Positions 30,351 to 62,938 of a DNA stretch of 64,000 nucleotides are shown here, piece after piece. Origin of the DNA: Aquirufa antheringensis. Lineage in GTDB: Bacteria > Bacteroidota > Bacteroidia > Cytophagales > Spirosomataceae. Positions within the stretch are counted from its first letter, which is position 1, and each line of letters starts with the position of its first letter. The translations under genes and the position numbers were made by a program. Where the stretch lies: assembly GCF_004307425.1 (NCBI RefSeq), contig NZ_SEWZ01000001.1, positions 311,662 to 375,661 on the forward strand, written 5' to 3'. Below the pieces are notes generated by a model. It saw nothing but the letters and a program-made list of their open reading frames with translations. It was not told the origin of the DNA and made no database searches.

Positions 30351-30417
30351 TTTCACATACGTATCCGCGCAGCGGATTCCGACTTTGTGCTTTTTGCTTT
30401 GTTCTTTGTGCTTTATT
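30351..30417 (+). repeat. Composite hairpin plus heptamer element, copy a
   Basis: TTTCACATACGT, then the hairpin ATCCGC-GCA-GCGGAT (30363-30377), the linker TCCGA, and five heptamers CTTTGTG, CTTTTTG, CTTTGTT, CTTTGTG, CTTTATT (30383-30417). Same build as the copies at 38861-38927, 52101-52179 and 62831-62938. Confidence 0.85.
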
Positions 30418-30448
30418 TTTGATTATCGCTTTTTGCGATAATCAAAAA
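30416..30448 (-). repeat. Perfect 14-bp inverted repeat over the 3' end of the 30423-31088 gene
   Basis: TTTTTGATTATCGC and its exact complement flank a T5 loop. The arms include the last codons and the stop of the gene, so a hairpin forms in its mRNA end. May help terminate minus-strand transcription, though no T tract follows on that strand. Confidence 0.75.
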
Positions 30449-31088
30449 CCCCCACCTTCACCCCAATCGTACCAGCTGCTTTTGCCATCCCGTCTGTTTT
30501 CTCTTCCCCAAAAGCGAAGCGGTAATTAGCACCACCGAACACTTTTACGTATTTGAAAAGATTCACTTCAAGGTTTATACCTGGTTGCACACCTAGGGCT
30601 CGTGGACCGTTGCTAAATCGATCATGGGCTTGTCTGTAGGGCAGAGGCTGATAGGCAGTTCCAGGGTAAGCAGGGTAATTGATTAGCGGAGCTTCCTCCT
30701 GAATACGTCCAATGGCTAAAGGGAAACTTAAATGAAACACCTTATTAGCCATTGGCGTGACTTCCATCGTTAAAGCATTAAATCGACGACGTGGTTCATC
30801 TGCATAGCGATTCGGATCATCATTGCGTGGATTCGAATTAAAAGAAGCAATACCTAGGGATAATTTGTTATTCAAGTGAACTTGAAATCCCATGGATCGT
30901 TCTGGGCCACCCTTGCCGAAAAGCATTTGAGATTGAAGGGATACGCCGATAGACGTCAGCTTGTGTGGTTTGAAAAGCGTCTTCATAGCAGAGTTGGAAG
31001 AGTCTTTTCTGATTTTGAATACTGTTTCTTGGCCAAAGGATTGTAGGCCAATCAACAACAAGAATAATAGGCGGATTGAATGTTTCAT
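30423..31088 (-). CDS. Predicted outer-membrane or secreted protein, family not recognised
   Basis: 221 aa. The signal peptide MKHSIRLLFLLLIGLQSFGQ is clear, and I chose its Met (31088) over an upstream start at 31115. The mature part has alternating hydrophobic/polar strands (SIGVSLQSQMLF, NLEVNLFKYVKVFGGANYRF) like a small beta-barrel. No enzyme motif. Divergent from the sensor kinase gene. An imperfect -7 box (minus-strand TAATTTG inside 31113-31119) precedes it. Confidence 0.6.
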   Translation of the reverse strand: MKHSIRLLFLLLIGLQSFGQETVFKIRKDSSNSAMKTLFKPHKLTSIGVSLQSQMLFGKGGPERSMGFQVHLNNKLSLGIASFNSNPRNDDPNRYADEPRRRFNALTMEVTPMANKVFHLSFPLAIGRIQEEAPLINYPAYPGTAYQPLPYRQAHDRFSNGPRALGVQPGINLEVNLFKYVKVFGGANYRFAFGEEKTDGMAKAAGTIGVKVGVFDYRKKR

Positions 31089-31218
31089 GTCTTTAATTTT
31101 TTTACGAATGTACAAATTATAACGTTTCGATATTTCTAATTAGATACATGGGCTTTTTTTGAAGATTAATGGTCCTATTCTATCGATAAGGGGCGCAGGT
31201 GGATTCCACTTATTTGGC

Positions 31219-31226
31219 TAGATTTG
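31219..31226 (+). promoter_or_regulatory. Bacteroidota -7 element for the sensor kinase gene
   Basis: TAGATTTG, perfect TAnnTTTG, 17 nt before the ATG at 31244. This makes the longer reading from the GTG at 31199 unlikely. Confidence 0.5.
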
Positions 31227-31243
31227 TAAAAATCATTTGTGCT

Positions 31244-32299
31244 ATGTGGCAGGCTATTAATTCTAGGAAAACGAAGCGGACCTTTCAGGTATTGTTTAAC
31301 CTGATTCTGTGGGGAATGTGGATAGGCTTGCCTTTGTTAAGTCCTGTCCACCAAACGCACGAAGTAGCTCATCCGCATCCGCATGATAATCCAGAGTTTT
31401 CCGAGCATATCTGGGTGGAGCTGATTACCGTGATGCCGTTGTTCTATGTGATTACGCTACTTTTGATTCCTTTTGTTTTTAAAAAGAAAGGCATTTGGTT
31501 CTTCTTTGCTAGTTTAATACTAACAAATGTGGCGTTCTTTTTAGTCCAAATGTTGTTCCACCACTTGTTCTTGGAATTTGAACACGAGCATGGTACTGCA
31601 CCGGAGATTTTGGGCGCTTTTCCGCTCATCATGGTTTCTGCGATTGCGTCTGCTTATGGTTTATTGTTAGAGTTTTTAGAGCAAGATGCGAACAAGGAAG
31701 AACAGAAAAATGAGCAGTTGAAATCAGAGTTAGCGTTTTTGCGCTCTCAGATTAGTCCGCATTTCATCTTTAATATTCTGAATAGTATTGTGTATTTGAT
31801 TAGGACCAAAGCCTCAGAAAAAGCGGAAGATGTAACCATGCGTTTGTCTTCTTTGATGCGCTATATGTTGTATGATTCGGACCAAACAATGGTTCCATTG
31901 ACTAATGAATTTGCTTATTTAGAGAATTATATTGATCTCCAAAAAATGCGATTTGACGGGAATGTCGATTTTAAATTCCAAGTGAATGGCGATGGAGCAG
32001 GTCATTTAATTGAGCCGATGTTATTAATTCCTTTTGTGGAAAATGCGGTTAAACATGGGGTGGGTTTAGTGGATAAGCCGTTTATCTATGTTACCCTAGA
32101 AACGACAGATCACGGTTTGCATTTTCAGGTTAAGAATAAAAAGGGAAAAGAAGAACAGGTTTTTAAAGATCCTAGTTCAGGAATTGGGTTGAAGAATGTG
32201 AAGCGTCGTCTGGAATTATTATATCCTAAAAAACACGAATTAGTCATTGAAGAGGACGACGTGAATTTCTCCGTGGATCTACACTTAACATTGAAATAA
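31244..32299 (+). CDS. LytS-type sensor histidine kinase with His-rich periplasmic loop
   Basis: 351 aa. Four predicted membrane helices in the first 140 residues, then a short coiled coil and a His_kinase/HATPase module: phospho-acceptor block QISPHFIFNILNSIVYLI, N box PFVENAVKHG and GIGLKN. The loop after helix 1 holds many histidines (HQTHEVAHPHPHD, then SEH) and helix 3-4 is joined by HHLFLEFEHEHG, which could bind a metal ion. ATG 31244 is chosen because a perfect -7 box sits just before it. The response regulator gene follows after 1 nt. Confidence 0.88.
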   Translation: MWQAINSRKTKRTFQVLFNLILWGMWIGLPLLSPVHQTHEVAHPHPHDNPEFSEHIWVELITVMPLFYVITLLLIPFVFKKKGIWFFFASLILTNVAFFLVQMLFHHLFLEFEHEHGTAPEILGAFPLIMVSAIASAYGLLLEFLEQDANKEEQKNEQLKSELAFLRSQISPHFIFNILNSIVYLIRTKASEKAEDVTMRLSSLMRYMLYDSDQTMVPLTNEFAYLENYIDLQKMRFDGNVDFKFQVNGDGAGHLIEPMLLIPFVENAVKHGVGLVDKPFIYVTLETTDHGLHFQVKNKKGKEEQVFKDPSSGIGLKNVKRRLELLYPKKHELVIEEDDVNFSVDLHLTLK

Positions 32300-32300
32300 G

Positions 32301-33017
32301 ATGGTAAAGATGAATTGCGTTGTCGTGGACGACGAAGTGATGGGACGTAAATTATTAGAGGAAAATGTGAAGCAGATTCCATTTTTGAATCTAGTGGGTT
32401 CTTGTTCGAATGCGTTCGAGGCGATGGAAGTGTTGCAAAAGGAGCAGGTCGATTTACTTTTCTTGGATATTCAAATGCCGGGCTTGTTAGGGACGTCGTT
32501 CTTATCTTCTTTGGCCGTTAAACCTCTTGTGATTTTTGTGACTGCTTATGCGAATTATGCGGTGGAAAGTTATAATCTGGACGCGGTAGACTACTTAATG
32601 AAACCGGTGAGTTTAGATCGTTTTGCCTTAAGTGCAAATAAGGCGTATCATATTTTTGTAGGTAAAAATATGGTTGAAAAGGAACCTCTAGAGGACTTCT
32701 TTTTTGTGAATGTGGAATATTCACTCGTACGGATTTCGATTCCAACCGTAACGCACGTGGAAGGTTTAAAGGATTATGTGAAGATTTTTGTGGAAGGAGA
32801 ACGGCATCCTATTTTGACCAAACAGACGATGAAAAGTGTAGAGGCAAAAGTGATGCCTCATGGCTTTATGCGCGTTCACAAATCGTTTATTGTTAATCTC
32901 CAAAAGATTGAATCAATTAAGCACCAGCGAATCAAAATAGGAAACTATGAGATTGCCGTGAGCGATTCTCATCTAGCAGAATTGATGGAGCGGCTTAACG
33001 CGAGTAGGTTAGGTTAA
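32301..33017 (+). CDS. LytTR-family response regulator
   Basis: 238 aa. Receiver domain at residues 1-120 with the acidic pair in VVDDE, phospho-acceptor Asp in LFLDIQMP (about 57) and Lys in YLMKP. LytTR DNA-binding domain at about 140-238 with FMRVHKSFIVNL. Translationally close to its kinase. The target is unknown; the neighbouring convergent TonB receptor unit is a candidate. Its last 23 nt overlap the end of that receptor gene on the other strand. Confidence 0.92.
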   Translation: MVKMNCVVVDDEVMGRKLLEENVKQIPFLNLVGSCSNAFEAMEVLQKEQVDLLFLDIQMPGLLGTSFLSSLAVKPLVIFVTAYANYAVESYNLDAVDYLMKPVSLDRFALSANKAYHIFVGKNMVEKEPLEDFFFVNVEYSLVRISIPTVTHVEGLKDYVKIFVEGERHPILTKQTMKSVEAKVMPHGFMRVHKSFIVNLQKIESIKHQRIKIGNYEIAVSDSHLAELMERLNASRLG

Positions 33018-34899
33018 ATTGTAAGCCTAGATGGAAGTTTCGGCCGGGAGCTGGGTTGTAAAAACGGCCTCCGATGGCATTTAAATCTGGTCCAGGTGAA
33101 TAGCGCTCATCGCCCACATTTTCTGCCGCCGCCCAAACTGTCCAGCACTTCCGCGCATAACTTATTTTTGTGTTCCAAAGGCGATAGGAGCCCATCCGCT
33201 CCGTATTCGTGTCATTCAGGAATTGATAATCCACCAATTGAAAATTTTGCACGAGACTTATTCCTGATGGGTGTCGCCAAACGAGTGTAGTTGCCTGTTG
33301 GTAAGGAGTTGTTCCCGTTAAGAAATTTCCATTCGCAAATCGAAAGTTTTGCCAAGTATGCGATTGTTCTAATGTCAAAGTAGGGTGGATCATCCAGGTA
33401 CTACTTAATTCCAAACCTTGTTGGGTCGTAGAACCAGCGTTCGTAAAATAGTCTGATCCATCAGCCGCTCTTCTGACCACGATGGTTTCGTCCAGGTTAA
33501 ATTGATATACACTCAAATCCCAATTGAATTTCGCGTATTTACCTCGGTAAGTTATTTCGTGGTTCCAGCCATTTTCGGCTTTTAACGTACGGTTTATTTC
33601 CCCCGTTGACGGTCGTAATTCACTAATGCTGGGAGGTGAATAGCCATGTGCTACTTTGGCAACAATACTCTGATGCGCCCCTAATTTGCGTAGAACCGCC
33701 AAACGAGGGGAGAAGATAGCTTCGTTACCGATATACTCCGTCCAATAGCTACTCAAGCTACCGGAGAAAGTGAAGAGCCAATTCGCCAACCCGGCATATT
33801 CATTTTGTAAGAAGAGGCTTCCTTGCTGGACATGGGTATTTTGAGTCAATTGCAAAGTGTCTTTTACGCCGTTTCTATTTCCAAAAGTCGAACTATTCAT
33901 TTGTCCTGCCTGGTATTCAAATCCCAGGTCGCTATTAATAACTCCTTTTCTGTGGAGTACTCCGCGCGTGGAATAATTGGGTTCATGGCGAACTTCATAA
34001 TTCCGTATCGTCGGATTTTCGATATCATTCACTTGAATTGCCTGACTCAAATCCCAAGCCCAAAGGTTATTCAGCACTTGAGATGCCCGAGCACTTAAGC
34101 CATAACTTTTTATTTTAAAGGTCGCCCCTTGCTGTTGCGCACTCTTGAAAGCGCCTGCCGCAGGTCTAGCTTGCTGAGGATTTGCAAGGAATTGAGCTTT
34201 TGTTAATCCTCCCGGAGTTTGGTAGGCCAAATCAACATAATAGGTGCTTAGATCTAGGTTGATATCTTTCGTAAAGTTGTGGTGGAATTCATACGAAATC
34301 CATTGCTTTTTCATCGCGGATTGAGCTCGATAACCCTCTTGCTGGTTGAAGGAGGCGTAAAGTCGGTGGTTTTCTGCGGATAAATCGATGGCCGTTTTCA
34401 TTCCCCCTAAGGAATGGTAAACAGTTTCGGCCGTAAGGGCATTTCCACGTGCTCCACTTTCGAATAGCAATACTCCACCTGTTCCTGCTCCGTATATTCC
34501 GGCAGATGGGCCTTTGGTTACGGTTAATGATGAAAATAAGGCGGGTTCTAGTAGTGAAATGTAGGTGTTGTTCCCGGCATCTGTAAAGGGAATTTGATTC
34601 CAATATACTTTGGTGTTACGTACGCCAAAGGGTGCCCTAAGTGAGCTACCTCTTATCGCAATTCGGTAACTACCCGGAGATCTTTCTTCCATCCGAATAC
34701 CTGCCATGGAATTAAGCGTAGATACAAATTGGGTCGAACTAAACTGCTGAAGATCTGCAGCGCGAACAAAGGCATCTGGGGTATTTAGCGTACTCCGTTT
34801 TTGTTCAAACACATACACTTTTACTTCCTCGAGGACTTTCGTAGAATCTTTTTGGGCTAAACCAGGAAAACAGAAAAGGAGTAGTAGGAATTTCTTCAT
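32995..34899 (-). CDS. TonB-dependent outer-membrane receptor
   Basis: 634 aa. Signal peptide MKKFLLLLFCFPGLAQ, a plug domain at about 30-150 (FVRAADLQQFSS, SMAGIRMEERSPG, IRGSSLR, VTKGPSAGIYGAGTGG), then a 22-strand-type barrel ending in a Tyr/Arg-rich C-terminus. No SusC-type CarboxypepD_reg extension, so it is more like a siderophore, metal or vitamin receptor than a glycan importer. I chose the ATG at 34899 (the longer frame from 34983 lacks a signal peptide at its start). It follows the 34901-35671 gene by 1 nt. Confidence 0.92.
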   Translation of the reverse strand: MKKFLLLLFCFPGLAQKDSTKVLEEVKVYVFEQKRSTLNTPDAFVRAADLQQFSSTQFVSTLNSMAGIRMEERSPGSYRIAIRGSSLRAPFGVRNTKVYWNQIPFTDAGNNTYISLLEPALFSSLTVTKGPSAGIYGAGTGGVLLFESGARGNALTAETVYHSLGGMKTAIDLSAENHRLYASFNQQEGYRAQSAMKKQWISYEFHHNFTKDINLDLSTYYVDLAYQTPGGLTKAQFLANPQQARPAAGAFKSAQQQGATFKIKSYGLSARASQVLNNLWAWDLSQAIQVNDIENPTIRNYEVRHEPNYSTRGVLHRKGVINSDLGFEYQAGQMNSSTFGNRNGVKDTLQLTQNTHVQQGSLFLQNEYAGLANWLFTFSGSLSSYWTEYIGNEAIFSPRLAVLRKLGAHQSIVAKVAHGYSPPSISELRPSTGEINRTLKAENGWNHEITYRGKYAKFNWDLSVYQFNLDETIVVRRAADGSDYFTNAGSTTQQGLELSSTWMIHPTLTLEQSHTWQNFRFANGNFLTGTTPYQQATTLVWRHPSGISLVQNFQLVDYQFLNDTNTERMGSYRLWNTKISYARKCWTVWAAAENVGDERYSPGPDLNAIGGRFYNPAPGRNFHLGLQFNLTYSR

Positions 34900-34900
34900 G

Positions 34901-35671
34901 TTAGAAGAAATAGGTGAATAAGGTGGACGGTATGATGGCTTGAGAGGCTTTAATCGACTTAGAATTAGGGTTTTCTGCTCCACCTAAATTGAGTGATTCT
35001 AGGTTGATAACCCAGCCAAAATGTCCCTTAGTCAGTTGAATTTTTGCTTTAAAATTAGGAAGCTTTTCTGAAACCAAGGACTGGTAGGGCACTCCTACAT
35101 AGCGACCATATAATGTCACCACTTCATACAAAGGTTCAAAAACTTGTGCTTGTATCTGGAAAGTCGTTTTTCCCGGGATCACTAATCCGATTCCACCGCT
35201 CATTCCGTGTAAGGAGTATTTTTCTTCTTCGATGTATTCAGACCTTAAAGAGCTGATTTTTCTAGCTATAGATTTACTGTATAAACTTAAAATGGGTGTT
35301 AGATGAACAGTTGTTTTTCGTTTATTCGTATTCCAAAGCAGACCCACTTCAGCCTCACCTCCACGGTAACTCGATTGCAAAACTTCGTTAGGTTGAATAG
35401 GTTGATTGAAATTATTCATCGGAGGTTCAATGAACGTATAGTTGCTTCTATCTATCGCGCTTCCGGTTAGGTTTCCCATTGTTTTTAAGGCGATGAAAGT
35501 CTTGTGATTTTTTTCTGGGTTTTGGAACGTGATTTCTGCCGCGAAATCTAAGGTCATTTGTTGTTCGTGCCACGAAATGAGGGAGGTTCCTACACTCGAA
35601 TTAAAGCGAAATTTTTGGCCAAAACTGACAAAGGTAATCACTAGAAAAACCAGGCTTATGCGAAATCTCAT
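34901..35671 (-). CDS. Predicted secreted or outer-membrane protein upstream of the TonB receptor
   Basis: 256 aa with signal peptide MRFRISLVFLVITFVSFGQ. The mature protein shows beta-strand-like alternation and ends in FTYFF, an aromatic end typical of outer-membrane barrels. Family not recognised. A GTG at 35677 falls inside the -7 box, so ATG 35671 is the better start, and the mRNA may be leaderless. It is coupled to the TonB receptor (TAA, one base, ATG), so the two probably serve one uptake process. Confidence 0.65.
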   Translation of the reverse strand: MRFRISLVFLVITFVSFGQKFRFNSSVGTSLISWHEQQMTLDFAAEITFQNPEKNHKTFIALKTMGNLTGSAIDRSNYTFIEPPMNNFNQPIQPNEVLQSSYRGGEAEVGLLWNTNKRKTTVHLTPILSLYSKSIARKISSLRSEYIEEEKYSLHGMSGGIGLVIPGKTTFQIQAQVFEPLYEVVTLYGRYVGVPYQSLVSEKLPNFKAKIQLTKGHFGWVINLESLNLGGAENPNSKSIKASQAIIPSTLFTYFF

Positions 35672-35676
35672 AGCCA

Positions 35677-35684
35677 CAAATATA
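35677..35684 (-). promoter_or_regulatory. Bacteroidota -7 element for the 35671 gene and TonB receptor
   Basis: The minus strand reads TATATTTG (perfect TAnnTTTG), 5 nt before the ATG at 35671. Transcription from it would start at or beside the start codon. Confidence 0.55.
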
Positions 35685-35690
35685 GGGGAT

Positions 35691-36455: not shown

Positions 36456-37647
36456 AATAGGCGAGGTGTTGCTGGGCAACGATGGTTTGGTTGTATAATT
36501 GTAGCGCGCGCTCCCTGGATTTTGATCCGGAGGTGGTAGACCCGAGACACCAGTTTATGCCTTTTGCCAAATCTGCCGGGTTAAATGCTTGGGCCACATA
36601 GCCAGTCACTTCGTGTTCGATCATCTCCGGAATTCCTCCCACTTCGAATCCGACGCAAGAAGTGCCGCAGGCCATGGCTTCCATGATCGTATTGGGTAAA
36701 TTTTCTTCCAAAGAGGGAGTAACAAACACATTTGCCGCCGCATAGATATCGCGCATTCTGGCTGGGTCTGAAACCTGCCCAAAATTATGTGCTTTCAAAG
36801 GTAATTCCTCGGTCATCTCTCCACCCACGATCAGCAGCTCGGTCGTAGTGGCATCCAAATACTGCAAGGCCTCTTTCAATAAATGAAAGCCTTTGGCGGG
36901 CGCATTTACGCGCATGGCTACAAAAAGAACATATTTCTTGTTTGGATTTAATCCTAAGCTAGATGCATTAGGCGAGAAGAATTCCGTATCAATCGCGTTT
37001 GGAATGGTTTTAATCGAGTGACCTCCCAAAATGCTACTTTGTCTCGCTCTATTTCCCAGCCAATCACTGCAAGTAATGATGTGTAGGTTTTTCTCCGCAA
37101 ACCCCGTTTTCTTCGCCTCCCACATTCGGTGCGAAAGATCCGTCGGATTTGGATTTTTCAAGAATTTACAATCTCCACAACTCTGTCGAAAATGCTCGCA
37201 ACTCCCACTGTGGTGACAGCCTCCCGTAAAGGCCCACATATCGTGCAGGGTCCAGAAAACAGGTTTATTAAGCCTAGTCAGTTGAGCAATATCGCTCACA
37301 GATAAGAAACCAAAATTCACCCAATGCAAATGCACAATATCTGCCTGCTGGATCAGCGGATGCTTCGAAACATCACTCCCAAAAACACCCGGATTGAATA
37401 GGAATCGAATCGATTTATCTTTCTCAAAACGCAAAAAGAACAAGCGCTCGGCAATGAATTTCAACCAAGAAATCAGGCCATTGCCGAATTTTAGGGCGCT
37501 GGAAGTGCTCCCTTTTTCTCTGACGAGGTAGTCGACTTGATGTCCCGCTTTTTCCAAAGCCACTTTCAATCTACCCGCCGCAATCCCAGCCCCGCCATTG
37601 CTGTCGTGGTAAGAGAGGAGGACGATATGTAGCTTTTTGGCAGACAT
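36442..37647 (-). CDS. Family 4 glycosyltransferase
   Basis: 401 aa GT-B enzyme. N-terminal glycine-rich loop SNGGAGIAAGRL, C-terminal donor site EENLPNTIMEAMACGTSCVG with the E-x7-E motif. A central CEHFRQSCGDCKFL stretch with several Cys and His residues is reminiscent of the WcaC-like colanic acid transferases. Overlaps wecB by 1 nt (TAATG) and the GT2 gene by 14 nt. Acceptor unknown. Confidence 0.88.
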   Translation of the reverse strand: MSAKKLHIVLLSYHDSNGGAGIAAGRLKVALEKAGHQVDYLVREKGSTSSALKFGNGLISWLKFIAERLFFLRFEKDKSIRFLFNPGVFGSDVSKHPLIQQADIVHLHWVNFGFLSVSDIAQLTRLNKPVFWTLHDMWAFTGGCHHSGSCEHFRQSCGDCKFLKNPNPTDLSHRMWEAKKTGFAEKNLHIITCSDWLGNRARQSSILGGHSIKTIPNAIDTEFFSPNASSLGLNPNKKYVLFVAMRVNAPAKGFHLLKEALQYLDATTTELLIVGGEMTEELPLKAHNFGQVSDPARMRDIYAAANVFVTPSLEENLPNTIMEAMACGTSCVGFEVGGIPEMIEHEVTGYVAQAFNPADLAKGINWCLGSTTSGSKSRERALQLYNQTIVAQQHLAYYAQA

Positions 37648-38828
37648 TAAGCAAAAATTTCAGCTAGTTGAGCGGCTATTCTTTCGGCTGCCTTACCATC
37701 CCAAAGCGGAGGGATGCTCCCTTTCTTCACCTTGCCTGCCAATATCTCTTGCAAAGCAGCATAGGTTTTCTTTGGATCTAAATCCGATAACAATTGGTTC
37801 GTCCCTAAAGTCACCGTGATCGGTCGTTCCGTCGAATCGCGGAAAGTTAAGCATGGGACGCCTAAGTAAGTCGTTTCCTCTTGAATGCCGCCTGAATCGG
37901 TTAATATCGCTGTGGCATTGGACATCAATTGAATGAATTCTAAATAGCCCAAAGGCTCCGTCATAATCAAGTTTTGCGCCTGATCTAATCGTTCCGCTAA
38001 GCCAAATTTCTCCATATGTGCCCGCGTTCTCGGGTGGATAGGAAAAATGATTTTGGTATCCTTACTGCTTAATTCAATTAACTCTAGAATGGATTCAAGA
38101 CCCTCTTTCGTATCCACGTTCGCCGGGCGGTGCATGGTCATGACAATATAGTCGGCAGTCGATAGTCGGGAGTCGGGAGTCAATAGTCGGGAGTCGGGAG
38201 TCGCTAGGCCGGAGTCGGCAGTCGATAGTCGGGAGTCACTAGTCGCTAGTCCGAGGTCTTCCAGTATGGTGGTGGTTTTCGCTTTTTCTTGATAGCGAAC
38301 TAACGAGTCAATCATCACATTGCCTGAGAAAAATACACGCTCATCTGCCACACCTTCATTTTTCAAATGTTGCAATCCGCTTTCTTCCGTCACAAATAAA
38401 TAATCCGCCACGCTATCTGTCAAGATGCGATTTAATTCCTCTGGCATCGTTCGGTCAAAGCTACGTAAGCCTGCCTCTACGTGAGCGACTTTGATACCCA
38501 TTTTGATCGCCACTAAGGTACAGGCCAAAGTCGAAGTAACATCCCCCACCACAATAATTAAATCCGGTTTTTCGGCTTCAACAATTTTTTCAAAGGCCAC
38601 CATAATCTTCGCAGTCACTTCTGTGTGGCTTCCACCCCCAATTCCGAGGAAGAAATCCGGTGTAGGTAATTCCAGTTGTGTAAAAAACACATCACTCATC
38701 TTTGCGTCAAAATGCTGACCCGTATGAACGATCTTCGATGTCCATCCGGCTAATTTTTGGATCGCACGATGTAGCGGTGCTACTTTCATGAAATTAGGAC
38801 GAGCGCCTACGACTTGAATTACTTTCAT
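37647..38828 (-). CDS. wecB: Non-hydrolysing UDP-N-acetylglucosamine 2-epimerase with heptad-repeat insertion
   Basis: 393 aa; interconverts UDP-GlcNAc and UDP-ManNAc for surface polysaccharide. Conserved are GARPNFMKVAP, VVGDVTST, HVEAGLRSFD, PEELNRI, MTMHRPANV and DSGGIQEE. Between ILEDLGL and YIVMTMH lies an extra run of about 32 residues made of 7-residue units such as DSRLSTA and DSRLLTP. It is encoded by the 7-bp array at 38150-38254, which stays in frame because 15 units make 105 nt. Without it the length would match ordinary WecB. No wecC dehydrogenase is adjacent. Confidence 0.93.
   Translation of the reverse strand: MKVIQVVGARPNFMKVAPLHRAIQKLAGWTSKIVHTGQHFDAKMSDVFFTQLELPTPDFFLGIGGGSHTEVTAKIMVAFEKIVEAEKPDLIIVVGDVTSTLACTLVAIKMGIKVAHVEAGLRSFDRTMPEELNRILTDSVADYLFVTEESGLQHLKNEGVADERVFFSGNVMIDSLVRYQEKAKTTTILEDLGLATSDSRLSTADSGLATPDSRLLTPDSRLSTADYIVMTMHRPANVDTKEGLESILELIELSSKDTKIIFPIHPRTRAHMEKFGLAERLDQAQNLIMTEPLGYLEFIQLMSNATAILTDSGGIQEETTYLGVPCLTFRDSTERPITVTLGTNQLLSDLDPKKTYAALQEILAGKVKKGSIPPLWDGKAAERIAAQLAEIFA
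38150..38254 (+). repeat. Heptamer array inside wecB, 15 units
   Basis: Plus-strand units AGTCGGC, AGTCGAT, AGTCGGG (five times), AGTCAAT, AGTCGCT, AGTCACT and two more diverged units (AGGCCGG, AGTCCGA). Same family as the arrays at 18949 and 19509. Coding on the minus strand as GACTNNC, read as a 21-nt/7-residue period. Confidence 0.95.
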
Positions 38829-38860
38829 TTATACCTATTTAAAAATTCTAATTTACGAAT

Positions 38861-38927
38861 TACAAAGAACAAAGTTCAAAGAGCAAAGTTCAAAGTTAGA
38901 ATCCCCTGCGGGGATGAACTCATGAAA
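38861..38927 (-). repeat. Composite hairpin plus heptamer element, copy b
   Basis: On the minus strand: TTTCATGAGTTC, hairpin ATCCCC-GCA-GGGGAT (38901-38915), linker TCTAA, then five heptamers CTTTGAA, CTTTGCT, CTTTGAA, CTTTGTT, CTTTGTA (38861-38895). It lies between the GT4 gene and wecB, 33 nt upstream of wecB, so it is probably within one transcript. Confidence 0.85.
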
Positions 38928-38953
38928 TAAATCCTTCGGACTCACTTCCTACG

Positions 38954-38988
38954 GACTGACCACTGACTACTGTCCACTGGCTACTGAA
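38954..38988 (+). repeat. Heptamer array, CACTGAC type, at the 3' end of a glycosyltransferase gene
   Basis: Five units GACTGAC, CACTGAC, TACTGTC, CACTGGC, TACTGAA. The last three units encode the C-terminal SVASGQ and stop codon of the gene at 38967-40166. Confidence 0.85.
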
Positions 38989-41659: not shown

Positions 41660-41708
41660 GCCTTGTTTTGAATGTAATTTACAAAAATACGATTTTGCGG
41701 GGCATTCT

Positions 41709-42803: not shown

Positions 42804-42874
42804 TCAGGGCTGATTTTTAATGCAAAACCGAAATTAGCTAAATTTTTCGGCTATTTTTACAGCAAATACGCGTC

Positions 42875-45591: not shown

Positions 45592-45608
45592 GTGAAATGT
45601 TTACCCCG

Positions 45609-47391: not shown

Positions 47392-47392
47392 G

Positions 47393-49645: not shown

Positions 49646-49656
49646 TTTTTGTCCGT

Positions 49657-49664: not shown

Positions 49665-49692
49665 CTTATTTTACGTCGTTTTTTTTCCATAA

Positions 49693-50178: not shown

Positions 50179-50187
50179 AACAATATT

Positions 50188-51468: not shown

Positions 51469-51477
51469 ACCATCAAA

Positions 51478-51966
51478 ATGGAGGGGATTTCAGTAGCTGA
51501 TTTGTACAAGTTCGACGAGATCTATTGGGTCCCGCAGGATAAGTCAGAGGCGCAGCTAGCGGAATCCCCTGCTGTTGAAGTTGTAGCTGACACAATAGCA
51601 GAGGTAAAACCGAAGGTTTCCACTCCTTGGGTCGTTGTAGGCCAAATCGCCGAAGCCGAACTAGCTCGTTTAAAACTTATTTTTTCTGCACCTCCACTCG
51701 TTTTAGGTCCCTCCGATTGGTCAGTCTATACGCCATCGGACGAAGAACCAAGCTTCACTGAATTCCTGAAAGAGACGAGCGCAAAACGCTATATCCTTAT
51801 CGGTCAACAGCCGGCTGTTTGGCAAGGGGAATTACCTACCACCGAGATCGATACCATTGAATCCAAATTAGTCTATTTCTTTCCACGCTATATTTCGTCG
51901 CTGACGGATGCGGAGAAGACGCTGAAGATGGCGTTTTGGAATGCGTTGAAGGAAATGAAAGGGTAA
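51478..51966 (+). CDS. Hypothetical protein downstream of purA
   Basis: 162 aa acidic protein, family not recognised. No signal peptide or membrane segment. A variable first part (residues about 20-50, Ala/Val/Glu-rich) precedes a folded C-terminal half with strands VVVGQIAEAELARLKLIF and AKRYILIGQQPAVWQG. It starts 9 nt after purA and ends where heptamer repeats begin, 2 nt after its stop. Likely cotranscribed with purA. Confidence 0.6.
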   Translation: MEGISVADLYKFDEIYWVPQDKSEAQLAESPAVEVVADTIAEVKPKVSTPWVVVGQIAEAELARLKLIFSAPPLVLGPSDWSVYTPSDEEPSFTEFLKETSAKRYILIGQQPAVWQGELPTTEIDTIESKLVYFFPRYISSLTDAEKTLKMAFWNALKEMKG

Positions 51967-51968
51967 TT

Positions 51969-52098
51969 CAAATACCAAATACCAAAGCTCAAAGTTCAGA
52001 GGTTGTATCGTTTGCAGCGATGGATTCGAATAGCAAAGACCAAAGCTCAAAGTTCAGAGGTTGTATCGCTTGCAGCAATGGATTCGAAAAGCAAAGAC
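51969..52098 (+). repeat. 58-bp direct repeats of heptamers plus hairpin, copies c and d
   Basis: Two units with a 58-bp period, each of about four heptamers (CAAAGAC or CAAATAC, CAAAGCT, CAAAGTT, CAGAGGT) plus a 30-nt hairpin module. Read on the minus strand, the hairpins (52007-52021 and 52065-52079) are ATCGCT-GCA-AACGAT and ATTGCT-GCA-AGCGAT. They lie downstream of the 51478-51966 gene. Confidence 0.85.
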
Positions 52099-52100
52099 AT

Positions 52101-52179
52101 TTCTGAATTCATCCCCGGAGGGGATTCCATCTTTGAACTTTGAACTTTGAACTTTGGTCTTTGCTCCTTGCTCTTTTAC
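52101..52179 (+). repeat. Composite hairpin plus heptamer element, copy e
   Basis: TTCTGAATTC, hairpin ATCCCC-GGA-GGGGAT (52111-52125), linker TCCAT, then seven heptamers CTTTGAA (three), CTTTGGT, CTTTGCT, CCTTGCT, CTTTTAC (52131-52179). The last heptamer contains the tsaD stop codon. Inverse orientation to copies c and d. Confidence 0.88.
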
Positions 52180-53174: not shown

Positions 53175-53191
53175 AAAAATAGAATTCTGCG

Positions 53192-53223
53192 CAAAAATAC
53201 GGCAATATGGTCAAATATCTCAA
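53192..53223 (-). promoter_or_regulatory. tsaD promoter (TTG-N21-TAnnTTTG)
   Basis: The minus strand has TTG (53221-53223), a 21-nt spacer inside the start of tamB, and TATTTTTG (53192-53199), 17 nt before the tsaD ATG. Confidence 0.6.
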
Positions 53224-57688: not shown

Positions 57689-57712
57689 AAAAGGCCACCC
57701 TGTCGGATGGCC
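57687..57712 (-). terminator. Terminator of the coiled-coil gene
   Basis: Hairpin GGCCA...TGGCC with an inner CC/GG pair and TGTC loop. On the minus strand it is followed by T6, so it ends the 57737-58681 transcript. On the plus strand it also follows the tamB stop but without a good T tract. Confidence 0.75.
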
Positions 57713-57736
57713 CATTTCAAAAAACGTAGGAGGAAA

Positions 57737-58681
57737 TTACTTTACCTCGAATGCGCCAGTTCCGATTTGGAAACCTTCTGCATATAATTCTACTGAATAT
57801 TTACCTGGCTTGTAAGCAACACCACCGCGAGGGTAAGTGACAGCTACGGTTTGGCTATCATTCGTATATTCAAAAGTTTGCTTCGCTGTGTATGTCAGCT
57901 CTTTTCCGTTGATGGTGATACGGCCAGAACCGATTGCTTCGTCAGAAAGAGTAGCACCTTCGCCATCTAATACACGAACGTAAACCGTCTTGTTTTCTAA
58001 CTTTGTGATTGGGTTTGTCGCTAGGCTAAATACCACTTTCAGTTTCTCGATTTTCTTACCGTTCAAACGAGAACGTTCTGTTTCTTTTCCTTTCGCGTTC
58101 ACGGCTAACACTTTCAAGTTTTGTGCCTTCAAAGCTGCAGCGATGCTTACTTTGCGCGCTAATTCTTTATTGCGTTGACTTACTGAAGAAAGCGTATCGT
58201 TTAACGTTTGGTTTTGGTTTTTCAAACCTGAGTTCTCCGTGTTTAACGTCGTGTTTTGCGTCGTTAACGTTTGGTTGCTCTCCGTTAAAATACCGTTTTG
58301 CTTCTTCAATTCAACGATTTCAGCGTCTTTTGTAGACAAGACCACGTTGTATTCTTTAATTTTCGCTTCATACGAGGCGATCGTTGCGTGGTTTGAGTTC
58401 TTTAAAGAGGCTTTATCTTGTTCTAATTGAACTTTCAAAGCTTCTAAATCAGCTACTTGACCACCAAGAGACTTGATCTCAGCGATTTTAGCATCTAATT
58501 GCGTCGAAATCGAATCTAAAGAAGCGCGTGTATTGGATAATTCGGTTGCTTTTTGTTCGATTTGCGTAGCTTGATCCTTCGTCGTTTGGTACGAACGGAA
58601 GTACAAAACTCCTAAAACTGCCGTTAGCACTGCTAAGACAATTAGGGCTGTTTTGGAATTGTTGTTAGGCGATTGTTCCAT
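57737..58681 (-). CDS. Membrane-anchored coiled-coil protein
   Basis: 314 aa. One membrane helix at about 10-30 (KTALIVLAVLTAVLGVLYF), then a long coiled coil at about 35-175 rich in Gln, Asn, Thr and Ser (repeats such as LTTQNTTLNTENSGLKNQ), and a C-terminal beta-sandwich domain at about 180-314. Family known to me only as an uncharacterised Bacteroidota type. The reading frame extends to 58795, but the -7 box at 58725-58732 and the clean membrane segment support the ATG at 58681. Confidence 0.72.
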   Translation of the reverse strand: MEQSPNNNSKTALIVLAVLTAVLGVLYFRSYQTTKDQATQIEQKATELSNTRASLDSISTQLDAKIAEIKSLGGQVADLEALKVQLEQDKASLKNSNHATIASYEAKIKEYNVVLSTKDAEIVELKKQNGILTESNQTLTTQNTTLNTENSGLKNQNQTLNDTLSSVSQRNKELARKVSIAAALKAQNLKVLAVNAKGKETERSRLNGKKIEKLKVVFSLATNPITKLENKTVYVRVLDGEGATLSDEAIGSGRITINGKELTYTAKQTFEYTNDSQTVAVTYPRGGVAYKPGKYSVELYAEGFQIGTGAFEVK

Positions 58682-58724
58682 TGGGTATAAATTGATTTTT
58701 AAGGGTTTATAATTTTTAATGCGG

Positions 58725-58732
58725 CAAAAGTA
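58725..58732 (-). promoter_or_regulatory. Bacteroidota -7 element for the coiled-coil gene
   Basis: The minus strand reads TACTTTTG, perfect TAnnTTTG, 43 nt before the ATG at 58681. Confidence 0.5.
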
Positions 58733-58811
58733 CAAAAAAAAGTCCACATTTCGGGGGGTATCTCGGATTGAAGGCTCTTTTTGATTAATTTGCACTGCTT
58801 ATTTAAATCCT

Positions 58812-60392
58812 ATGCCTACATACGACTTTATTGTCATCGGTTCTGGAATTGCTGGTTTATCCTACACGGTTAAAGTGGCGGACTATTTTCAGCAACGTCA
58901 AATCCCCATCAAAATTGCCTTGATTACGAAGACCGTGGCGGAAGAGACGAACACGAAATATGCGCAAGGCGGGATTGCAACCGTTTGGGATTCAGCGGAT
59001 TCCTTTGAAAAACACATAGAAGACACGATGGTAGCTGGGGACTTTGTGAGTGATCGCAAGGTGGTAGAAATAGTGGTAAATGAGGCTCCAGCGCGTTTAA
59101 AAGAGTTAATCGCCTACGGGACTGATTTTGATCGCCAAGCAGATGGATCATTTGATTTAGTGAAAGAAGGGGGCCATTCCGATAAGCGTATTTTGCACCA
59201 TAAGGATTCAACCGGAAATGAAATAGAACGGGCTTTATTAGCCAAAGTCAAGTCCTACACTAGCGTGGATTTCTTTACGCATTACTTTGCGGTAGACTTA
59301 ATCACCCAGCATCATTTAGGAGAGAAAGTGACGAAGGATACGCCGGGTAAGAAATGTTTTGGGGTCTATGTGCTGAATCTCAAGACGAATAAAATTGAAA
59401 CTTTTTTAGGTAAAACCACCTTGTTAGCTACCGGAGGAATTGGTCAAGTATACCAATCGACGACCAATCCCACGATCGCAACGGGTGATGGAATCTCAAT
59501 GGCCTACCGAGCAAAAGCCTTTGTGCAAGGAATGGAATTCATTCAATTTCATCCTACGGCCTTGTATAATCCGGGTAAAAAACCCTCTTTCTTAATTTCC
59601 GAAGCTGTTCGCGGACACGGTGGAATTTTGAAGAACCAAGATGGTTCTACCTTTATGGAAAAGTACGATGCGCGTTTATCTTTAGCCCCTCGGGATATTG
59701 TGGCGCGTGCGATCGATTCGGAGATGAAGAAGAACGGAACGGATCACGTTTTCTTAGATACCCGTCATATTCCGAAGGAAGAAATTCTACAGCATTTTCC
59801 CATGATTTACGATCATTGCCTGCAGGTGTTAGGTATTGATATGTCTCAGGAAATGATTCCAGTCGTTCCAGCCCAGCATTATTTATGCGGGGGAATTATC
59901 GTGAATGAACATAGCCAAACGAATATCGAAAATCTTTACGCCGCCGGTGAATGTTCGTTTACGGGTTTACATGGGGCGAATCGTTTAGCCTCTAATTCCT
60001 TATTAGAAGCGATTGTTTACGCGCACCGGGCATTTGAAAAATCAGTTTCTGAATATGGTACTCAGGTGTTGCCGGAAGGTATTCCATCGTGGAATGATGA
60101 GGGAACACGCCACCCCGAGGAGATGGTTTTAGTGACGGAGATGACGCGTGAATTAGAGTCCATCATGTCAAATTATGTGGGGATTGTTCGGACGGATCGC
60201 CGTTTGAAAAGAGCCTACGATCGTTTGGAATTGATCTATTTAGAGCATGAAGAATTGTACCGTCAATCGAAAATTACGGTGCCTTTGTGCGAATTAAGAA
60301 ATATGATTAATGTGGCCTATTTGATCATCAAACACGCGCGTGCACAGCGGGAAAACAAAGGTTTGCACTATAACCTAGATCTGATTCTTTAG
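58812..60392 (+). CDS. nadB: L-aspartate oxidase
   Basis: 526 aa FAD enzyme that oxidises aspartate to iminoaspartate, first step of de novo NAD synthesis. FAD-binding VIGSGIAGLSYTVK at the start, TKYAQGGIATVW, FHPTALY and the Arg in EAVRGHGGIL and APRDIVARAI are conserved with the succinate dehydrogenase flavoprotein family. No nadA or nadC next to it. A near-consensus box TTAATTTG (58795-58802) ends 9 nt before the ATG. The 3' end overlaps udk by 18 nt. Confidence 0.93.
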   Translation: MPTYDFIVIGSGIAGLSYTVKVADYFQQRQIPIKIALITKTVAEETNTKYAQGGIATVWDSADSFEKHIEDTMVAGDFVSDRKVVEIVVNEAPARLKELIAYGTDFDRQADGSFDLVKEGGHSDKRILHHKDSTGNEIERALLAKVKSYTSVDFFTHYFAVDLITQHHLGEKVTKDTPGKKCFGVYVLNLKTNKIETFLGKTTLLATGGIGQVYQSTTNPTIATGDGISMAYRAKAFVQGMEFIQFHPTALYNPGKKPSFLISEAVRGHGGILKNQDGSTFMEKYDARLSLAPRDIVARAIDSEMKKNGTDHVFLDTRHIPKEEILQHFPMIYDHCLQVLGIDMSQEMIPVVPAQHYLCGGIIVNEHSQTNIENLYAAGECSFTGLHGANRLASNSLLEAIVYAHRAFEKSVSEYGTQVLPEGIPSWNDEGTRHPEEMVLVTEMTRELESIMSNYVGIVRTDRRLKRAYDRLELIYLEHEELYRQSKITVPLCELRNMINVAYLIIKHARAQRENKGLHYNLDLIL

Positions 60393-60998
60393 GTAGGAAA
60401 CGATTACATCGAGTCCTTTTTCGAAGTGCTGATTGTTCGGAATCACGATGTCACAACTGCGTTTGTGTGGTCGAATAAACTCCTCGTAGGTGGGTTTTAC
60501 GTGGTATTTCCAGCGGTACATCACATCCTGCAAATCGTATCCTCGCTCTTCGTTATCGCGTTTGATTCTCCGTTTTAATTTGATTTTATCTCGGGCGTCA
60601 ATGAATATTTTGAGGTCCAAAAGCTGTGCCACCTCCGGAAAGTGAAACACAAAAATCCCCTCCACTACTAAGATTTTGCGGGGATGAAAATGCAACATAT
60701 CAGGCACTTTCTCCGTGTTATTGAAGGTGTATTCCACCCTACTCACTACTTCGCCGTTACGCAATCGTTCGATGTCTGCCGCAAAAGCTTGGTCATCGAT
60801 GGCCCCTGGAAGATCAAAATTTTCGATTCCGTTGTGATCCTTCGTCTGGTGTTCGATAGGACGGTAGTAGTTATCTTGGGACAAAAGGCAGATGTCATCC
60901 GTCCTGAACTGTTCCATTAATCGGCTTAAAAAGAGGGTTTTACCTGAGGCGCTACCACCAGTGATTCCGATAATAAAAGGACGTTCGATTGTTGACAT
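60375..60998 (-). CDS. udk: Uridine kinase
   Basis: 207 aa P-loop kinase that phosphorylates uridine and cytidine in pyrimidine salvage. Walker A is GITGGSASGKT (residues 10-20); DNYYR, DLPGAID, VEGIFVF and RRIKRDNEERGYD (lid) are the family blocks. Full length. Converges on nadB with an 18-nt overlap of coding ends. Confidence 0.95.
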   Translation of the reverse strand: MSTIERPFIIGITGGSASGKTLFLSRLMEQFRTDDICLLSQDNYYRPIEHQTKDHNGIENFDLPGAIDDQAFAADIERLRNGEVVSRVEYTFNNTEKVPDMLHFHPRKILVVEGIFVFHFPEVAQLLDLKIFIDARDKIKLKRRIKRDNEERGYDLQDVMYRWKYHVKPTYEEFIRPHKRSCDIVIPNNQHFEKGLDVIVSYLKNQI

Positions 60999-61058
60999 AA
61001 GTGCTTAATTCCGGTGCAAATTTGCGAAAAGGTTTTTATTTAAGCTAAAAAACCGCTT

Positions 61059-61562
61059 TCATTTTCGGAATTTGAGGTAAATCGCCACTTCATCCTTCGT
61101 CTTGGTTTCTATATATTTCAGGCCGGCTTGCTCGAATTCGTCGATGATTTCGGGCTCAAAAAATAAGTCTTTTCCGCATCCTTCATGCTGCAAACGCTCC
61201 ACTTTGGATATTTCCTCCTCGATAATGATGATGCCACCTTCCTTTAAGGCGCTTTTGATTTTTGCTAGCATAGCTGCGCGATCCTCCAATTCGTGCCAGG
61301 CATTAAAGACCCAAATTTGATCTTTATGTAGTAGCTTCTTTGGATTTAGTTCGACCTCCGTATTCCAAATTAACCCCGTTTTTTCCGTGAAATAGTCAAT
61401 GCTATCTTGGATATCTTCCTGTTGTACGACTGGATCTACTAGGGCTAAATTCTGTGCGGGATAATGTAGGCAAAGGCCTACTTCCCACCAACCATAACCA
61501 CAGCCAATGGAAGCGATGTGATCCGTCGTTTTCCATCTGCCAAAATCGTAGAATTCTTTCAT
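61059..61562 (-). CDS. Putative class I methyltransferase
   Basis: 167 aa from the ATG at 61562; a TTG ten codons upstream (61592) would give 177. Motif I IASIGCGYGWWEVGLCL and the acidic end LALVDPV fit a SAM-binding fold, followed by WVFNAWHELEDRAAML and the strand GGIIIIEEEI. Small for a methyltransferase; substrate unknown. The upstream region is shared with the divergent carbonic anhydrase-like gene, whose -7 box lies at 61580-61587. Confidence 0.65.
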   Translation of the reverse strand: MKEFYDFGRWKTTDHIASIGCGYGWWEVGLCLHYPAQNLALVDPVVQQEDIQDSIDYFTEKTGLIWNTEVELNPKKLLHKDQIWVFNAWHELEDRAAMLAKIKSALKEGGIIIIEEEISKVERLQHEGCGKDLFFEPEIIDEFEQAGLKYIETKTKDEVAIYLKFRK

Positions 61563-61579
61563 AGACTCGCAATTTAAGG

Positions 61580-61587
61580 TATATTTG
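61580..61587 (+). promoter_or_regulatory. Bacteroidota -7 element for the gamma-carbonic anhydrase operon
   Basis: TATATTTG, perfect TAnnTTTG, 19 nt before the ATG at 61607. It argues against the longer reading of the divergent methyltransferase gene. Confidence 0.55.
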
Positions 61588-61606
61588 GTCAATAATATAA
61601 AACAAC

Positions 61607-62107
61607 ATGGCGATTTTTATTGCACCTACGGCCAGCGTAATGGGTCGCGTTTTCATCTCGAAGGATGTTTCTGTTTGGTATGGCGCAGTAATTCGGGCGG
61701 ATGTGGAGGAGATTCACCTAGGCGAAGGCTGCAATATTCAAGACAATGCCGTTTTGCATGCAGATGAGGGTGATAAAACCATTATAGGTCCACACGTAAC
61801 TGTCGGTCACGGCGCCATCGTGCATGGAGCGGAAATAGGAGAGGGAAGTTTAGTGGGGATGCAGGCAACGGTGTTAAATAGGGCCAAAGTAGGGAAGTTT
61901 TGCCTCATCGGAGCTCACGCCTTAGTCACCGAAGGGATGGAAATCCCCGATTACTCTTTGGTTTTAGGGACGCCTGCAAAAGTGGTTAAGACCCTTAACA
62001 AAGACCAAATTAATCGTCTGAAATATGGCCCACCGCATTATGTTAAAATGGGTGCCGAACACAAATCTGGAAAATTTCCCTTGTTAACCGCAGCTGACTT
62101 CGAATAA
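61607..62107 (+). CDS. Gamma-carbonic anhydrase-like hexapeptide-repeat protein
   Basis: 166 aa left-handed beta-helix protein. Hexapeptide turns run through about residues 8-130 (VSVWYGAVIRAD, IGPHVTVGHGAIVHGAEIG). The three zinc histidines expected for the family are His51, His68 and His73. It resembles YrdA/CaiE-type homologues whose activity is often weak or unknown. Starts an operon with sixA (1-nt overlap). Confidence 0.88.
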   Translation: MAIFIAPTASVMGRVFISKDVSVWYGAVIRADVEEIHLGEGCNIQDNAVLHADEGDKTIIGPHVTVGHGAIVHGAEIGEGSLVGMQATVLNRAKVGKFCLIGAHALVTEGMEIPDYSLVLGTPAKVVKTLNKDQINRLKYGPPHYVKMGAEHKSGKFPLLTAADFE

Positions 62108-62556
62108 TGGAACTCATACTCATTCGCCACGCACATGCAGGGCCACACACGGTAGAGGATAAAGGACGCCATCTCTCAGAAAGAGGCATTGAAGAAGCGC
62201 TTCTTTTAGGGGAGTGGATGCATTTAAAACAATTCCCAGCTGGGTTCTGGTTAATCTCTGATGCCATCCGTACGCGAGAAACGGCTGAATTACTAGGCAA
62301 ACCCTTCTCAGAATTCGAGTTATCTGAATTTTGGTATATTTCGAGTGGTCCAGATTACTTGACCGAAATCGCGAAGCGCACGGAGCCCATCCTTTATCTG
62401 GTAGCTCACAATCCTTCTATTTCTTATCTCGCCTCTTATTTAACCGGCGATATGATTCAAATGGAAACAGTCGGTTGCGTATCTTTGCATTTCCCGGGTC
62501 TAAGTTCTTGGTCAGAAATCACCAAAGGCTTCGCCAACATCACACATCAACTATGA
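62107..62556 (+). CDS. SixA-like phosphohistidine phosphatase
   Basis: 149 aa histidine phosphatase-superfamily protein. The catalytic ILIRHAHAG starts at residue 4 (Arg7, His8); a second His lies in VAHNPS. In E. coli SixA dephosphorylates histidine phosphotransfer domains; the substrate here is unknown. Overlaps the previous gene by 1 nt and the small membrane protein gene by 4 nt (ATGA). Confidence 0.87.
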   Translation: MELILIRHAHAGPHTVEDKGRHLSERGIEEALLLGEWMHLKQFPAGFWLISDAIRTRETAELLGKPFSEFELSEFWYISSGPDYLTEIAKRTEPILYLVAHNPSISYLASYLTGDMIQMETVGCVSLHFPGLSSWSEITKGFANITHQL

Positions 62557-62699
62557 ACAAGAATCAGAAAATATTTCGCTGGGTGTTAATTTTGTTTACG
62601 CTGCTGATGATCGGTTTAGCGATTCAGATGGCTGTAAATACGACGGCGCCATGGCACAAGAAATCGTCTATGAAATCTCAAAATCGTGCTGCGCAATGA
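62553..62699 (+). CDS. Small single-pass membrane protein (48 aa)
   Basis: 48 aa: a basic start MNKNQKIFRW, one hydrophobic helix (about residues 11-28) and a short tail with NTTAPWHKK. Start overlaps the sixA stop as ATGA, so it is translated by coupling. The last eleven codons lie on one arm of a perfect 25-bp inverted repeat, so the C-terminus may be a late addition. Family not recognised; function unknown. Confidence 0.65.
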   Translation: MNKNQKIFRWVLILFTLLMIGLAIQMAVNTTAPWHKKSSMKSQNRAAQ

Positions 62700-62722
62700 T
62701 TTTGAGATTTCATAGACGATTT
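62661..62722 (+). repeat. Perfect 25-bp inverted repeat over the 3' end of the small membrane protein gene
   Basis: Arms 62661-62685 and 62698-62722 are exact complements with a 12-nt loop. The first arm is coding, the stop TGA sits in the loop/second arm start. No T tract follows at once; an ordinary terminator comes 36 nt later. Confidence 0.92.
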
Positions 62723-62758
62723 CTGTCTAGAGAGCTAGCAGGTCTTTTCTGATAAACA

Positions 62759-62786
62759 TAAAAAAGGGGCGTCAGCCCCTTTTTTA
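62759..62786. terminator. Intrinsic terminator after the carbonic anhydrase-sixA operon
   Basis: Stem GGGGC / GCCCC with loop GTCA, flanked by A7 and T6. Can act in both directions. Confidence 0.88.
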
Positions 62787-62792
62787 TTCCAA

Positions 62793-62820
62793 CTTTGAAC
62801 TTTGCTCTTTGAACTTTGGT
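62793..62820 (+). repeat. Heptamer array CTTTGAA, 4 units
   Basis: CTTTGAA, CTTTGCT, CTTTGAA, CTTTGGT, preceded by ATTCCAA as in the composite elements but without the hairpin; it is joined to the terminator T tract. Looks like a truncated copy. Confidence 0.85.
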
Positions 62821-62830
62821 ATTTATATCA

Positions 62831-62938
62831 TTTCATGAATGCATCGCCGCAGGCGAATCCAACTCTATGCTTTATTCTTTGTGCTTTAAATAAGTGCTTT
62901 ATGCTTTAAAAGAAAATCTCTACTCTATACTCTAAAGT
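62831..62938 (+). repeat. Composite hairpin plus heptamer element, copy f
   Basis: TTTCATGAATGC, hairpin TCGCC-GCA-GGCGA (62844-62856), linker, then about eleven units mostly in 7-nt register: CTCTATG, CTTTATT, CTTTGTG, CTTTAAA, a 6-mer, CTTTATG, CTTTAAA, AGAAAAT, CTCTACT, CTATACT, CTAAAGT. The last unit holds the stop codon of the YfiT-like gene. Confidence 0.8.

Follow-up and report, generated by a model that had tools for sequence, protein, structure and literature searches.

A 64,000-nucleotide stretch of the Aquirufa antheringensis genome (NCBI RefSeq assembly GCF_004307425.1, contig NZ_SEWZ01000001.1, positions 311,662 to 375,661; hereafter the window) carries copies of R1, which we interpret as an intergenic element like the repetitive extragenic palindromic (REP) sequences, its hairpins being the inner ends of two head-to-head half-units. 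The best explanation overall, to which we assign a probability of roughly 50%, is that R1 is the terminator-associated member of a class of cassettes with inverted arms of heptamer repeats. The plan of the element is [CAAAGNN]n - spacer - hairpin slot - core - hairpin slot - spacer - [NNCTTTG]n; the core ends resemble TTTCA(C/T)GAA, and half-units were also found alone. R1 agrees with REP elements in the broad sense in being a short, dispersed, intergenic palindrome with many copies and inverted pairs.

The original prediction had described six hairpins with GCA (n=5) or GGA (n=1) triloops, and all six 15-mers were located at the coordinates and on the strands below, with the stems and mismatches that it had given. 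Sites are identified by window position (site 1, 52111; site 2, 62843; site 3, 30363; site 4, 38901). G numbers denote genomes of the genus, G000 being that of the window, and carriers are the eight genomes with R1 matches described further below.

30298..30334, no strand assigned: terminator-like hairpin (A6, G+C stem, T6), left slot of the site 3 element
30363..30377, plus: hairpin ATCCGC-GCA-GCGGAT, right slot of site 3; orthologous place filled in 8/8 carriers
30383..30414, plus: CTTTGNN-type heptamer array, 3' of the site 3 hairpin
38863..38895, minus: CTTTGNN heptamer array, site 4
38901..38915, minus: hairpin ATCCCC-GCA-GGGGAT, site 4; orthologous hairpins in G013 and G021
51966..52098, minus: left half of site 1; heptamers and hairpins inside a tandem duplication of 58 bp
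52007..52021, minus: hairpin ATCGCT-GCA-AACGAT, site 1; one mismatch
52065..52079, minus: hairpin ATTGCT-GCA-AGCGAT, site 1; 58-bp duplicate of the 52007..52021 hairpin
52111..52125, plus: hairpin ATCCCC-GGA-GGGGAT, site 1; orientation opposite to its two neighbours
52131..52163, plus: CTTTGNN heptamer array, right half of site 1
62758..62787, plus: terminator-like hairpin in a slot, site 2; a heptamer array starts 5 nt later
62793..62818, plus: CTTTGNN heptamer array, site 2
62843..62857, plus: hairpin ATCGCC-GCA-GGCGAA, site 2; filled in 8/8 carriers

Because the hairpins at 52007-52021 and 52065-52079 lie within a tandem duplication (TRF period 58, 92% matches), the window holds five independent copies, not six. 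The flanks had been called alike, but their consensus is looser than stated: only some copies match a TTTCATGAATTC-like stretch, and what follows the hairpin (spacer and CTTTGNN heptamers) is more constant. The repeats exceed chance, with 15 occurrences of CTTTGNNCTTTG in the window (0.26 expected) and 124 of CTTTGNNCTTTGNNCTTTG in the whole genome (0 for the reversed pattern). The predicted hairpin proved to be one slot of a larger inverted-heptamer-array element, whose arms are of a kind also found around IVP genes and whose slots are predicted to fold either as small GNA hairpins or as terminator-like hairpins.

The argument for the stem rests on 41 CTTTGNN array starts, which were chosen by the array only, among the arrays listed, in 25 fetched stretches and the window. 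In the 9 nt upstream of the array, 20/41 starts reached a hairpin score of 6 or more, compared with 86/2000 random positions in the same sequences. When a fixed register was used (15 bases ending 5 bases before the array), 15/41 starts had at least 5/6 Watson-Crick pairs, as against 0-2/41 in each of 30 other registers. The 15 paired copies had seven different 5' stem arms, and their loops were GCA (7), GAA (4), GGA (2), CCA (1) and ACA (1), that is, GNA in 13/15, a proportion for which a binomial test overstates the case because the copies share descent. GNA triloops reportedly give extraordinarily stable DNA minihairpins, according to the title of Yoshizawa 1997 in the reference list of PMC7432603. 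At 7/41 starts the slot held a terminator-type hairpin (A-tract, G+C stem, T-tract) 3-5 bases before the array.

An alignment of 20 copies was also assembled, from 22 rows minus five that did not look family-like and one near-duplicate, plus four from another listing. In it 97.5% of the cells were paired, 18 cells were double-changed and one G-U pair was tolerated, a count that is inflated because the copies were picked by scripts that required pairing; the covariation score was 0.434 (mean after shuffling, 0.139) and is subject to the same bias of copy choice. One clear double change between orthologs was seen at 52111, where G023 has ATCACC-GAA-GGTGAT in place of ATCCCC-GGA-GGGGAT. Of the original prediction, the changes on both stem sides and the predominance of GNA loops are supported; the perfect stems might owe their maintenance either to selection or to template switching at palindromes, between which these data do not discriminate.

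A covariance model built from the 20 copies gave 54 matches at E<=0.01 in the window's genome (2.50 Mb, 99.55% complete; 150 of 1380 first-look candidates scored). At E<=0.001, 8/25 genomes of the same genus had matches (G000 49, G002 15, G007 16, G008 12, G013 59, G015 18, G021 25, G023 49), and none was found in 14 genomes from other families of the order; several of the 17 non-carrier genomes are incomplete (71-94%). The proposed dispersed repeat family therefore extends genome-wide and into close relatives. Identity to the window DNA in long matches was 79-93% in carriers and 65-81% in the non-carriers searched. In trees of hemE (11 rows) and of a neighbouring GTPase gene, which we take to be engB (12 rows), the carriers fell on one side with 100/100 support, opposite two and three non-carrier rows, respectively. 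The exact R1 pattern had 0 matches among IMG/VR viruses, and one R1 element used as query had none among plasmids.

An architecture like that of R1, with a different heptamer, surrounds an IVP/S23 gene in the window:

18948..19056, no strand assigned: left heptamer arm (ATAGTCG)n of the IVP cassette
19138..19515, plus: IVP/S23 four-helix-bundle gene (PF05635, TIGR02436), cargo of the cassette
19509..19620, no strand assigned: right, inverted heptamer arm (CGACTAT)n of the same cassette

The product was over the cut-off for PF05635 (116 bits vs 33.8) and TIGR02436 (108.9 vs 24), a four-helix-bundle family with solved relatives 2gsc and 2rld; its closest named relatives were records labelled Cytophagaceae (among the best 80 of 565 relatives). 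The genome has four IVP (PF05635) genes, each of them enclosed by inverted repeat arms, and at one of these sites the arms are the CAAAGNN arms of R1, as they are in the orthologs of G021 and G023. Across the genus, 45 IVP matches were found in 20/25 genomes (8/8 carriers and 12/17 non-carriers). Of these 45, 44 were flanked by inverted arms that scored 16 or more in local alignment, compared with 0/34 outer control windows, and the exception scored 15.5. Period 7 at 0.7 or above was present in a flank of 28/45 IVPs; in the others the periodicity was weaker or the units were longer and of hairpin type.

Beyond the genus, scores of at least 16 were obtained at 35/62 loci, as against 1/58 outer windows, 7/62 direct arms and 0/62 shuffled arms, and scores of at least 14 at 41/62 loci against 3/58 outer windows. 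The loci came from the best 80 of the 565 relatives, of which 63 entered and one more was dropped; eight records labelled Cytophagaceae, taken as the same genus, and nine with a short flank had been left out. The remainder were labelled Bacteroidetes, Patescibacteria, Ignavibacteria, Neomarinimicrobiota and others. This score superseded a lag-7 count that was weak beyond the genus (20/79 vs 6/72, one of the 20, L182, being a run of N, which matches at any lag). At L105, L239 and L242 the IVP genes have internal stop codons, as decaying copies within arms. A link to the Avd protein of diversity-generating retroelements was considered and rejected, since the window IVP reached 19.9 bits against an Avd cut-off of 80; by the same analogy a reverse transcriptase in trans was sought, and PF00078 had 0 matches in G000 and was present in only 5/25 genomes.

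We then compared the cassettes among host species. The 45 IVPs fell into 11 sites by flank similarity, and the window IVP is flanked by the GTPase gene and hemE, which encodes uroporphyrinogen decarboxylase. At this site 14 IVPs were found, nine in one orientation and five in the opposite. They formed three groups and one lone branch, and the arm class tracked the IVP group: AGTCG arms in G000, G013, G015, G023 and the lone G022; CAGT arms in G003, G007, G008 (contig 121) and G021; and TCCGAAGG arms in G002, G006, G008 (contig 88), G011 and G012. Both orientations occurred in two of the three groups. The grouping conflicts with the host trees, which covered 11/14 loci for hemE (the start pattern missed G003, G006 and G012) and 12/14 for engB. 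G000 and G002 are sisters in hemE (95/95), and G002 and G015 in engB (98/98), yet in each pair the IVPs belong to different groups; likewise G008 contig 88 and G023 are close in engB, yet their IVPs differ. An IVP tree constrained to keep the carriers together was rejected (p-AU, approximately unbiased test, 2e-93), as was a hemE tree constrained to join G002, G008 contig 88 and G011 (p-AU 2e-67), both groups having been chosen after the trees had been seen. In hemE the contigs of G008 share 93% identity, so this assembly probably mixes two species. By eye, G005, G010 and G016 have short inverted arms of other sequence at the site, without an IVP. The presence of inverted arms at 44/45 IVPs of the genus, together with one site that goes against the host trees and shows both orientations, gives a concrete handle on the IVP/S23 proteins, which are described as having no known function (PMC4990558).

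The R1 sites were also compared between species. Judged by eye, site 1 holds, among the carriers, R1 in G000, G013 and G023, arrays of GACTAA-linked GNA hairpins in G007, G008, G015 and G021, and TAGAGTA-type inverted heptamers in G002. In non-carriers, likewise by eye, it holds AT-rich inverted arms (G024) or other short inverted repeats (G011, G012, G022). The site 2 hairpin is present in 8/8 carriers with unlike left sides. At site 3 the core is present in 8/8 carriers, two of which (G013 and G021) have this terminator-spacer-hairpin segment in inverted orientation; a terminator-like hairpin alone occupies the place in the three non-carriers fetched (G010, G016, G022). Site 4, compared without G008 and G023, holds R1 in G000, G013 and G021 and TAGAGTA-type arms in G002, G007 and G015. 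The loops vary between orthologs in the middle base of GNA, a cleaner comparison than that among copies, being GCA (G000, G002, G008, G015), GGA (G007) or GAA (G013, G021, G023) at site 3 and GCA (G000), GTA (G021) or GAA (G013) at site 4, and the outer stem pairs have decayed in G021 at site 3 and in G013 at site 4. These comparisons show a conserved location, a changing class of array and a core that can be inverted. The R1 hairpins represent a second cargo, which shows in-place inversion between arms.

The genomic context was assessed at 22 of 30 loci fetched from the 54 matches, one per cluster. Flanking genes were convergent at 16 sites, tandem at three and divergent at three, compared with 10/64 convergent pairs among adjacent open reading frames (ORFs) of the window (p 2e-6), and the element was free of overlap with ORF calls at 20/22 sites (overlap at L057 and L072). 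This preference could also be read without any mobility, with slippage and template switching rebuilding inverted arrays wherever convergent ends need a two-way terminator or long hairpin, and the classes arising by in-place mutation and selection. Template switching can produce perfect stems, the site 3 terminator-like hairpin occurs both in carriers and in the three non-carriers, and neighbouring heptamer classes grade into each other by eye, for example at site 3 of G015. An origin in place, however, does not explain the hairpin, spacer and core sequence common to 54 matches in one genome, and it conflicts with IVP cassettes in a divergent promoter region that disagree with the host trees. 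We regard it as somewhat unlikely.

Five R1 elements were folded as DNA (z -4.1 to -8.2) and as RNA (z -3.1 to -7.9), with a single IVP arm as control (z +1.5); the heptamer arms are predicted to pair into a long stem in single strands. Since RNA folds as well as DNA, R1 might be a regulatory element at the RNA level only, its heptamers being bound by a protein such as one of the cold-shock RNA-binding type, its hairpins protecting or ending mRNAs. The 3'-end location and the tolerated G-U pair are consistent with this, and cold-shock proteins have been suggested for direct heptamer repeats (PMC4679880). Such a role does not require the palindromic symmetry and the in-place inversion, which treat both strands alike, and no Rfam family matched within the window at gathering score. 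An exclusively RNA-level function is therefore quite unlikely.

The hairpins had further been proposed to be REP elements moved by a Y1 enzyme, the REP-associated tyrosine transposase (TnpA-REP/RAYT). The pairing of short hairpins in inverted orientation, their intergenic location, the compensatory changes in the stems and the DNA-stable GNA loops would all suit such elements, and Y1_Tnp genes do occur elsewhere in the genus. The search found no such enzyme in the carriers: PF01797 had 0 matches in the 99.55%-complete genome of the window and in all 8 carriers, some of which are only 73-86% complete, and a RAYT/Y1 partner was rejected for the carriers on this ground. It was found in 8/17 congeners without R1, weakly (22-23.5 bits) in four of the eight, a comparison in which the carriers are not independent points because they form one clade. 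No CGTC, TGTC, CCTC or GTAG tag was present in the four bases before the stem in 20/20 aligned copies, and long heptamer arms and terminator-filled slots do not appear in the REP descriptions excerpted from PMC3733652. In our reading Y1/RAYT transposition is not the route in these genomes, and true REP elements, or doublets of them (REPINs), moved by a Y1 enzyme that has possibly since been lost are very improbable.

R1 works like a REP dimer but passes neither the Y1 test nor the tag test. Of the known systems, the one that it most resembles is the CGTC-tagged REP superfamily (PMC3733652), which is reported also in Bacteroidetes: both have A-T and T-A at the stem foot, a short unpaired tail near CCA (TCCA in 5/20 and ACCA in 3/20 R1 copies), head-to-head pairs whose partners are often unlike, and no adjacent transposase gene. 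R1 differs in its stem of 6 bp and loop of 3 nt (8-9 bp and 4-5 nt in the superfamily), in lacking the tag, and in having long heptamer arms and terminator-like slots. With REP elements, bacterial interspersed mosaic elements (BIMEs) and REPINs served by RAYTs, as outlined in parts of PMC2817692 and PMC3116915, it shares short intergenic palindromes in inverted pairs, but its carriers are without Y1_Tnp and its genome has about 54 matches rather than the usual >100.

The reading of R1 as a terminator-associated member of the cassette class would work as follows. Located mostly at convergent gene 3' ends, R1 is likely to be a two-way module for ending transcripts. The wider class would be defined by architecture, with inverted arms, mostly of seven-base period, around a cargo, the IVP/S23 gene being another such cargo. 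The cross-species comparison shows class members taking each other's place at fixed intergenic sites and inversion of their contents in situ, the inversion presumably running through the arms. The exchange probably reflects movement of cassettes rather than loss of old cassettes or recombination of flanks; host recombination or replication template switching at the inverted arms, possibly aided by the IVP, would be the likely route.

Several observations weigh against this reading. The hemE and engB trees disagree among carriers, so homologous recombination of the flanks may have helped the exchange. Arm sequences differ strongly between classes, so the class may have arisen by convergence instead of forming a single family. 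The hairpin is present in 8/8 carriers at sites 2 and 3, so R1 looks old in the clade, not busy, and no clean-ended R1 insertion was caught in the site comparisons. Some slots do not have GNA loops (GGT at site 2 and GATA at site 1 in G013; TTC and ACC in the left half of site 1 in G013 and G023). The convergent excess shrinks if the comparison is restricted to window gaps of 100 bp or more, of which 3/9 are convergent.

A broader proposal is that pairing inverted arms of seven-base period define a class of mobile intergenic cassettes in several phyla, exchanged and flipped at preferred sites, with IVP/S23 as the autonomous form that aids movement or inversion, the GNA-hairpin pair as the non-autonomous R1, and the intervening sequence (IVS) of 23S rRNA as a form that landed in rRNA. 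We put it forward as tentative and, taken as a whole, doubtful. According to part of PMC4990558, the 23S rRNA IVS likewise has an S23/IVP ORF between inverted stem-forming sequences, and a mobile origin has been proposed for it; the cassettes here differ in occupying intergenic sites of protein genes and in having tandem heptamers as arms. The 23S rRNA IVP is also named in a figure legend about CRISPR-associated proteins (PMC10910872, excerpt). The literature searched, from which subscription journals are mostly missing, yielded no account of IVP genes lying between inverted arms of heptamers. Intergenic heptamer repeats such as TAACTGA, reported also in some Bacteroidetes and Cyanobacteria (PMC4679880, in part), resemble the present arrays in their intergenic seven-base units; those repeats are mainly direct and mostly precede start codons in the first genome, whereas the arrays here come in inverted pairs that enclose hairpins or IVP genes and lie mostly at 3' ends. 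The cassettes offer a setting for such unexplained intergenic heptamer repeats of bacteria.

Some minor features were also recorded. An inverted CAAAGGTAAGGAAAA-like sequence bounds the IVP cassette of the GTPase/hemE site on both sides in the window (18936-19645) and at L217-L229; these bounds look like the -7 boxes of two divergent promoters. The GACTAA/TTAGTC-linked arrays at L032, L117, L118, L120 and L121 form a second array class in the genus, with varied stems and GNA-type loops, resembling a row of interchangeable hairpins. At L244 (site 3, G015) the heptamers seem to shift from CTTTRNN to CTCTAYN, as if the period were kept while the sequence drifted. No tRNA genes are present in the window. 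A TAGTCGG-type heptamer/21-mer array at 38149-38251 overlaps a predicted ORF (37647-38828). Adjoining the site 3 element, a 30-bp tandem repeat of 2.3 copies (30124-30191) is surrounded by longer inverted repeats, which vary in G002, G007 and G023.

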